Source: Pseudomonadota bacterium
Lineage (GTDB): Bacteria; Pseudomonadota; Alphaproteobacteria; Rhodospirillales; 2-02-FULL-58-16
Assembly (NCBI GenBank): GCA_022545455.1
Contig: JACZQZ010000003.1
Span: 1 to 52,570 of the forward strand
Direction: 5' to 3'
Length of the DNA stretch: 52,570 nt
Made by a program: the position numbers and the translations under genes. The notes under the pieces were generated by a model. It made no database searches and was not told the origin of the DNA. It saw only the letters and a program-made list of their open reading frames with translations. Positions 7,447 to 20,393 of the stretch are shown here, in pieces. Each line of letters starts with the position of its first letter. Position 1 is the stretch's first letter.

Positions 7447-8133
7447 TTGCTGAAAATCGTCTTCGTACGCATCAACCGTGCCGGCTGGCCGTTCATCGGA
7501 CTCTTCGCCGCCGCTTCCGTGGGCCTGGCGTACGTTGCCCCGGCGGCGGGGTGGATCGGCGCCCTCCTGACCGCCTGGTGCATATATTTCTTCCGCGATC
7601 CCGACCGGGTGACGCCGACCCGCCAGGGGCTGATCGTCAGCCCCGCCGATGGCGTCGTGCAACTGATCGACCAGGCGCCGCCGCCCTCGGAGCTGGGGAT
7701 GGGAGATCAGCCCCGCACGCGGATCGCCATCTTCATGAGCGCGTTCGACGTCCATGTGAACCGCATCCCGTGTGACGGCGTCATCACCGGCCTGGCGTAC
7801 AGGCCGGGAAAGTTCTTCAACGCCTCGCTCGATAAATCCAGCGAGTTCAACGAGCGCCAAGCCGTGCGCCTGACGACCCCGGACGGCCACGACATCGCCT
7901 TCGTCCAGATTGCCGGCCTGATCGCCCGGCGCATCCAGTGCGAGCTCGCCAAAGGCCAGGAAGTGCGCGCCGGCATGCGTTTCGGCCTCATACGCTTTGG
8001 CAGCCGCGTCGACGTGTACCTGCCGGACGGCGTGGCGCCACTGGTCGCCCTCGGGCACAAAACGGTGAGCGGGGAAACCGTCATCGCCGATGTCCGCGCC
8101 CAGGAGCCGGCACGCGACGGCGAAGTCCGCTAA
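7447..8133 (+). CDS. psd: Phosphatidylserine decarboxylase proenzyme
   Basis: A 228-residue short-type (archaeal-type) phosphatidylserine decarboxylase, which makes phosphatidylethanolamine. Features in order: two N-terminal hydrophobic segments, FRDP at 49-52, SPADG at 65-69, the conserved DVHVNR at 101-106, and RFGSRVDVYLP at 183-193. Self-cleavage between G185 and S186 would create the pyruvoyl cofactor on the small chain. The start is a TTG with AAAGG 8 bases upstream. Its stop lies at the edge of foldback copy B, beyond which pssA follows on the same strand. The two consecutive steps of PE synthesis are therefore paired. Confidence 0.95.
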   Translation: MLKIVFVRINRAGWPFIGLFAAASVGLAYVAPAAGWIGALLTAWCIYFFRDPDRVTPTRQGLIVSPADGVVQLIDQAPPPSELGMGDQPRTRIAIFMSAFDVHVNRIPCDGVITGLAYRPGKFFNASLDKSSEFNERQAVRLTTPDGHDIAFVQIAGLIARRIQCELAKGQEVRAGMRFGLIRFGSRVDVYLPDGVAPLVALGHKTVSGETVIADVRAQEPARDGEVR

Positions 8134-19570: not shown

Positions 19571-19840
19571 CTAGTGGCCTTTATCAGCTAAATTGCGCCC
19601 CTACGACGGCGTTGCGAGGTTTCCGGCTAGGAGCGCGTCGCGCCTTGGTGTGCGTGCACCACAAGCGGCGCGCGACGACGTCCGGAAGCCTCGCAACGCC
19701 GCCCTTCGGGTCGCTTTTCCCGTCCCCTCGGGGCGTCGGGAAGGCTTGCCGATGGGCCGCCATCGCCCGCGCCTCCCCTCCTGCCGAGGAAACGGGAAAA
19801 GCGATCGTAGGGGTGCACTTTAGCTGATACAGGCCACTAG
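19571..19840. repeat. Foldback element, copy D (270 bp)
   Basis: The outer ends (CTAGTGGCCTTTATCAGCTA... and complement) pair over about 40 bases with five mismatches. Arm I, CGTTGCGAGG with complement CCTCGCAACG, encloses TTCCGGCTAGGAGCGCGTCGCGCC..GCGCGACGACGTCCGGAA. Arm II, TCGCTTTTCCCG with complement CGGGAAAAGCGA, encloses CTCGGGGCGTC, CGATGG/CCATCG and CCTCCTGCCGAG. It has the orientation of copy B and nearly the sequence of copy E. It ends 4 bp before a FNR-type box. Confidence 0.9.
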
Positions 19841-19844
19841 CCAC

Positions 19845-19885
19845 TTGACTCAGGTCAAGGACTCCAGCCGCCAATTCGATAAGAT
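19845..19885 (+). promoter_or_regulatory. FNR/FixK-type promoter (FNR box plus -10)
   Basis: TTGACTCAGGTCAA at 19845-19858 is a symmetric FNR-family box (TTGAN6TCAA), centred at 19851.5. TAAGAT at 19880-19885 is a reasonable -10 hexamer. A start near 19892-19893 would put the box centre at about -41, the class II activator position for FNR/FixK proteins. No start codon with a coding frame follows before the terminator at 19968. Confidence 0.65.
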
Positions 19886-19892
19886 TCGAGCC

Positions 19893-19994
19893 ACTCGGGG
19901 GTCAATCCCAAATACCCGGTTCTCCGGGTTCATTACCCTCTAAACGTCATGTTTCCCTGTAAATCTCGCGGGGCCTTAGGCCCCGCTTTTTTTT
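19893..19994 (+). ncRNA. Candidate FNR-regulated small RNA (~100 nt)
   Basis: The stretch between the FNR-type promoter and a strong terminator has no plausible ORF but has RNA architecture. A short GGG/CCC loop (19897-19909) is followed by a perfect hairpin ACCCGG-TTCT-CCGGGT (19914-19929). A single-stranded, pyrimidine-rich linker with ACCCTCT and TTTCCCT (complementary in kind to Shine-Dalgarno sequences) precedes the terminator stem and a run of eight T. This is the layout of an Hfq-type regulatory RNA such as E. coli FnrS. Ends and function are inferred, with no transcript evidence. Confidence 0.5.
19968..19994 (+). terminator. Strong intrinsic terminator
   Basis: GCGGGGCC-TTA-GGCCCCGC is a perfect 8-bp GC-rich stem with a 3-base loop, followed directly by eight T. 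It is on the plus strand and ends the candidate small RNA. Confidence 0.9.
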
Positions 19995-20018: not shown

Positions 20019-20243
20019 TCACAGGTAGCTCTCGGGCTCGATTTCCCGGAGCAGGCGCTTGACATCCGGCACCTGCACGGAACGGCCGGAAAAATAGGCG
20101 ACGCCGTCCTCTTCCAGTTGCTTGATGGCACGGGACATGGTTTCCGGGCGGATGCCGATCATGGCCGCCAAATCCTGCCGCGCCAGGCAACGATCCGCGC
20201 GAATGAGCTGCGTGCCGCCGGTCACGTCGAGGAATATGACCTA
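20019..20243 (-). pseudogene. Relic of a Crp/Fnr-family regulator (C-terminal HTH only)
   Basis: The 68-residue frame ends with the winged helix-turn-helix of Crp/Fnr proteins: RQDLAAMIGIRPETMSRAIKQLEEDGV, then a GRSVQVPDVKRLLREIE tail. Just upstream, in frame and without an initiation codon, the bases encode VIFLDVTG, the start of the Crp hinge-helix segment. Roughly fifteen residues usually found between that segment and the HTH are missing, and a TAG precedes it. The cyclic-nucleotide-type sensory domain is absent. The remnant could still be read from the GTG at 20225 as a bare HTH, but I call it a pseudogene. Confidence 0.65.
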
Positions 20244-20393
20244 TGGATGTCCAAATTCAGCGAGGTGAAATCCCTGCTGGATGAGGGGCCGAAAAAGCGG
20301 TAAAGCGCCCGGCGTGCACATCACGGCTGGACGAACGGCCGGTATTGGGGTTTATTCGGGTTCTCTTTGAACCTGCAAGGGGGGGGAACCACC

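Follow-up and report, generated by a model that had tools for sequence, protein, structure and literature searches.

The stretch of DNA analysed here (52.6 kb, hereafter the window) contains a compact unit, in which an FNR/FixK-type box, a -10-like hexamer, a predicted small RNA and an intrinsic terminator follow one another on the + strand and run towards the remnant of a regulator gene on the opposite strand. The features are as follows, with RNA letters used for the transcript.

19845-19858, + strand: FNR/FixK-type box TTGACTCAGGTCAA, centred at 19851.5
19880-19885, + strand: -10-like hexamer TAAGAT, 21 nt past the box
19893-19994, + strand: predicted non-coding small RNA of about 102 nt (putative start)
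19914-19929, + strand: internal hairpin ACCCGG-UUCU-CCGGGU, with a compensatory C-G to U-A change in the related loci L003 and L011
19930-19967, + strand: mostly single-stranded linker with the C-rich seed UUUCCCUGUAAAUCU (19952-19966)
19968-19994, + strand: intrinsic terminator GCGGGGCC-UUA-GGCCCCGC followed by eight U
20019-20186, - strand: C-terminal remnant (about 55 aa) of a convergent FNR-type regulator (PF13545, 44.4 bits; tblastn, 96% over 55 aa)

The box was the sole site matching TTGAYNNRNNTCAA in the window, for which shuffled sequences gave a mean of 0.16 matches, and its centre was located at -41.5 relative to the predicted start at 19893. Both this position and the 21-nt distance to the TAAGAT hexamer are those of class II FNR promoters, in which the palindrome is centred near -41.5 and the -10 hexamer follows about 22 nt past the box. 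When boxed relatives were aligned on the box, a -10-like hexamer was visible by eye about 21-22 nt downstream in most of them, and automatic hexamer choice at the boxed loci gave spacings of 19-22 nt, with 25 nt at L052. The position of the box, the hexamer 21 nt further on and the centre at about -41, all reported in the preliminary description of this DNA, were therefore borne out by the sequence check, and from this arrangement we infer FNR binding and oxygen-dependent transcription at the TTGACTCAGGTCAA promoter. Upstream, a palindromic, CTAG-ended, MITE-like repeat of about 270 bp (19571-19840) stops short of the FNR box by a few bases; the same genome had dozens of copies, full or partial, and a similar element was located at about 200-480 in L003.

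The predicted RNA (19893-19994) folds at -36.0 kcal/mol, compared to a shuffle mean of -24.7 (z -4.1), with none of 200 shuffles folding as well. Only two + strand ORFs of at least 20 aa were found, specifically a 32-aa TTG frame that begins inside the box and a 20-aa ATG frame that crosses the terminator. The terminator stem comprises eight G-C pairs and a loop of three and is followed by eight T, and T-runs were also present in the aligned relatives. Across 13 relatives, 94% of the cells in the terminator helix were paired and five of its nine pairs had changed on both sides; over the structure, two-sided changes amounted to 23 cells versus 9.2 in shuffles (reached in 0 of 500), with a shuffle control that keeps the sequence relatedness. 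Thus, the non-coding stretch of about 100 nt and the terminator with eight T described previously were both recovered, while the claim of two hairpins needed amendment: the window has a damaged 5′ hairpin (CUCGGGG..CCCAAAU, versus CUCGGGG..CCCCGAG in L003), and the intact ones are that at 19914-19929 and the terminator. Within the linker, C-rich patches were located at 19936-19940 (CCCTC) and 19952-19960 (TTTCCCTGT). The linker is nearly invariant in the genus, and its seed UUUCCCUGUAAAUCU is the equivalent of the core CCUCCCUGUU-AACU that characterises the wider family (see below), the exposed seed UUUCCCUGU of the window RNA being shorter than the CCUCCCUGUU found in most relatives.

The whole unit is retained in the two other genomes of the genus (93% and 86% identity, with the box at 14/14). 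In a three-way alignment of the window, L003 and L011 the box was identical, and similarity dropped upstream of it and ran on downstream into the end of the convergent FNR-type gene. A covariance model of the RNA alone, with the box left out (R1), matched 85 of the 297 genomes from the order. Among the 82 family hits examined, 13 had a box whose centre lay 37-46 nt before the start of the model, compared to 0.012 expected under a dinucleotide model, three of the 13 being sequences used to build R1 (without the box) and some others near copies. The boxed hits fell in families f1 (the window's genus, with genome G008 represented twice), f26 (genome G034) and f27. The whole-unit model (R2) added L196 (f27, 65 bits), in which the box is retained and the CCCUG motif lost, and, weakly, L183 (f3, 38 bits), which adjoins an FNR-type gene. 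A pattern scan of genome contigs returned 13 records, of which eight were judged true. The titles of all eight are those of Rhodospirillales, Rhodospirillaceae or Proteobacteria MAGs, and L041 and L052 among them had a different hairpin architecture. There, the boxed units (7702-7841 and 685-852, respectively) exhibit another large hairpin, TCAGAGGC..GCCTCTGA, and the same CTCCCTGTTAAACT-plus-terminator end. No strict-pattern box was seen in the class-level loci inspected, which came mostly from other orders and included a few with coordinates that miss the RNA. The genomes with the unit are mostly fragmented assemblies. A lack of joint conservation of box and terminator had been named beforehand as a result that would count against the proposal; instead, box, class II spacing, RNA and terminator were kept together in the genus and in other families. 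Judged by sequence, the arrangement of box and sRNA is conserved in several families of mostly uncultured alphaproteobacteria.

The convergent FNR-type gene is intact in L003, where it encodes 243 aa (892-1623), and in L011; its truncation in the window may be a real deletion or an assembly junction. In the window (20019-20303), a shared CGCCAGG marks the point where the remnant is joined to a reading frame further downstream, and L003 and L004 have intact copies of the gene. Using tblastn, we found that the convergent gene adjoins the unit in 11 loci (L003, L011, L114, L031, L014, L019, L018, L027, L115, L094, L020), where it ends about 15-50 nt from the terminator, and the genes beside units outside the genus were 58-67% identical to that of L003. 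Approached from the regulator, a box lay in the convergent 3′ flank of 12 of 30 FNR-orthologue loci (L180-L209), no more than about 240 nt from the FNR stop; at two of the 12 it had the variant form TTAA..TCAA. Several FNR-orthologue genes were also preceded by a box, in keeping with autoregulation. Boxed loci encode FNRs that retain CX2CX8C and a C122-like cysteine, that is, the four cysteines of an iron-sulfur FNR, and the best NCBIfam model for the linked gene was FnrL, with a score below the cutoff. In the f27 loci, hemN and hemerythrin genes were located near the unit. In a phylogenetic reconstruction of FNR, boxed loci were clustered (0 of 500 shuffles as low), yet five label changes were needed, such that the tree does not establish a single origin of these loci. 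The window's own genome (G000, family f1) has an intact FNR-type gene on contig C154 (1724-2425; L193) that grouped with f27 (99/97 support), a placement that may point to a xenologue or to contamination during binning. Since the linked gene is truncated in this genome, another FNR must act there.

The convergent arrangement would also be expected if the RNA acted mainly on its neighbour, with the read-through 3′ end of the FNR transcript lying antisense to the sRNA and giving rise to local feedback or a sponge. The short distance behind the terminator in the eleven loci is in line with such a role, as are the box upstream of the FNR gene in many loci and a window terminator stem that has no T-run on the - strand. 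However, L113 is boxed and had no FNR-type gene within the 2.5 kb examined, and the C-rich motif is also found in unboxed siblings of the RNA, which were not found adjoining this FNR gene; hence we view a mainly local role as unlikely.

Rather, we think it probable that the RNA is an FNR-activated, Hfq-dependent, trans-acting sRNA that represses mRNAs unneeded at low oxygen. The joint conservation and the adjoining FNR-type gene support the FnrS-like, FNR-controlled layout put forward in the preliminary description. The parts and their spacing, their conservation as a unit, the linked FNR-type gene and hfq, which was present in all nine genomes queried, can be read from the genomes directly, and from these we infer transcription, Hfq dependence, repression and targets. 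Specifically, as oxygen falls, an iron-sulfur FNR-type regulator would bind TTGACTCAGGTCAA at -41.5 and activate RNA polymerase in the manner of class II FNR promoters, yielding an RNA of about 102 nt that ends at the intrinsic terminator. By analogy with the alphaR8 group, this RNA would be bound by Hfq, and its exposed C-rich UUUCCCUGU could pair with purine-rich Shine-Dalgarno regions and thereby repress mRNAs dispensable at low oxygen. The alphaR8 siblings of Caulobacter are driven by unrelated promoters, and one of them, SisA, represses mRNAs via an anti-Shine-Dalgarno 10-mer with Hfq (PMC12559287). Hfq-dependent repression is proposed here by analogy because of these anti-Shine-Dalgarno relatives, the comparable C-rich stretch and the presence of hfq; an intrinsic terminator with a U-tail, here of eight U, is likewise a feature of Hfq-dependent sRNAs. 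Points that weigh against this reading are the truncation of the linked FNR-type gene in this genome, the damaged 5′ hairpin and short seed of the window RNA, the loss of the CCCUG motif from L196, and the target search described next, which gave no conserved target.

Several candidate targets were considered. The complement of the linker, ACAGGGAAACATGACG, was rejected as a Shine-Dalgarno-plus-ATG target: exact matches in G000 and G005 were solely at the gene itself, G006 matched there with one mismatch, and two hits elsewhere with two mismatches were inside an apparent elongation factor P gene and in one genome only, respectively. The seed plus ATG (ACAGGGA N2-10 ATG) had more matches than the reversed pattern, an excess explicable by Shine-Dalgarno sequences alone. 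Among these seed-plus-ATG candidates no conserved target was found. The site at pdhA, which we rejected, was common to G000, G005 and G006, partial in G003 and absent in the other relatives examined, and was thus confined to the genus save for the partial G003 match, while the TRAP-transporter and acyl-CoA synthetase sites were present in two genomes each.

At Rfam gathering thresholds neither the window nor 20 relatives gave a match, and the earlier statement that no named RNA has this sequence stands at those thresholds; the RNA is nonetheless a relative of the SorX/alphaR8 group and no orphan. R2 had matches in 143 of 385 class genomes and 218 of 317 order genomes, with a common core of ACGUCUCCCAGACGUGAAGCCUCCCUGUU-AACU plus terminator that was often multi-copy or in tandem; literature searches with the core sequence gave nothing relevant. 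By these comparisons, the window RNA is a sibling, though a diverged one, within an alphaproteobacterial sRNA family that spans the class and is related to SorX and suhB/alphaR8. SorX (RF02784) was the best sub-threshold Rfam match of the family, at 26.9 bits in the window (E 4.5e-5 on 111 nt), 31.1 bits in L003 and 44.1 bits in a class-level locus, all falling below the SorX gathering score of 46.6, and the matches likewise fell below that of SorY (RF02651; 111). The alphaR8/suhB model (RF00519) gave 19.5 bits in the window against a gathering score of 41, and its matches over the cutoff were at separate loci, including one on contig C121 of the window's genome. Because SorX and suhB match only below gathering scores and the RF00519 matches over the cutoff are at other loci, we call the RNA an alphaR8/SorX relative, not a member. 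Upstream of unboxed siblings, which were multi-copy and tandem in several genomes, there was often a palindrome resembling GATGTTGC..GCAACATC together with a TATATT-like sequence, as at L090, L100, L104 and L118 among many other loci.

The window's genome has unboxed siblings on contigs C114 and C147 as well as the RF00519 match on C121, and a sponge RNA controls the alphaR8 siblings in Caulobacter (PMC12559287), both of which would accord with the RNA being a sponge or competitor of sibling sRNAs instead of pairing with mRNAs. Yet its C-rich motif has the same sense as that of the siblings and is not the G/A-rich complement used by the Caulobacter sponge CrfA, and we consider this role quite improbable. 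That there is no independent RNA, and that we are seeing the 3′ UTR and terminator of the rpoH-like gene upstream on the same strand with a chance palindrome, is hardly credible given the roughly 300 nt, including the mobile-element-like repeat, between the RpoH gene and the unit in the window, the relatives that differ upstream of the box yet keep the unit, the different neighbours of the unit in f27, and the 13 boxes at one distance versus 0.012 expected.

Enterobacteria are known to have FNR-driven sRNAs, FnrS among them. Here, the sequence of a predicted sRNA gene with an FNR switch, placed tail-to-tail with an FNR gene, suggests that certain mRNAs are silenced when oxygen runs out. A broader proposal is that, in several families of Rhodospirillales, the FNR gene and an sRNA activated by FNR constitute a conserved convergent module of two genes. 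In this view, FNR took control of one sibling from an anti-Shine-Dalgarno sRNA family that is class-wide and apparently undescribed, and this kind of seed is thereby deployed at low oxygen, with possible feedback on FNR via the overlapping 3′ ends; we see the chances of this being correct as evenly balanced. If true, the conserved pair would represent an FnrS-like arm of the oxygen response in Alphaproteobacteria, and one alphaR8/SorX-like sibling would have been shown to be placed under oxygen control. The box, its spacing and the core motif would then serve as clear sequence markers for tests in culturable relatives.

Among known systems, SorX and SorY of Rhodobacter have a 3′ half, CCUCCCUGU plus terminator, in common with the window RNA. 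SorX arises by processing of an mRNA 3′ end and is tied to heat-shock sigma factors and singlet-oxygen stress; it is not known to be linked to FNR. The alphaR8/suhB/MmgR/SisA-D group (RF00519) is alike in its hairpin, single-stranded C-rich anti-Shine-Dalgarno motif, intrinsic terminator and multi-copy siblings with unrelated promoters (PMC12559287), whereas the window RNA has an extra 5′ hairpin and the FNR box upstream; furthermore, in place of the 10-nt single-stranded UUUCCUCCCU of alphaR8, the window has GUUUCCCUGU and many relatives have CCUCCCUGUU. For Alphaproteobacteria, a review (PMC8139620) gives only DenR and a perhaps indirect FnrL-PcrZ link, and names no conserved direct FNR promoter for DenR or PcrZ. 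DenR (Paracoccus) and PcrZ (Rhodobacter) are, like the RNA predicted here, alphaproteobacterial sRNAs of anaerobic or low-oxygen growth (PMC8139620), their sequences having been compared with the window through the Rfam search alone. The Rfam model of FnrS had no match to the window at the gathering threshold or among sub-threshold matches. FnrS of Escherichia coli is controlled by FNR and represses, in an Hfq-dependent manner, functions that are dispensable without oxygen (PMC8139620). FNR control and Hfq-dependent repression of such functions are the predicted points of likeness, while the window RNA differs from FnrS in sequence, without detected homology, and in having a convergent FNR-type gene as its neighbour.
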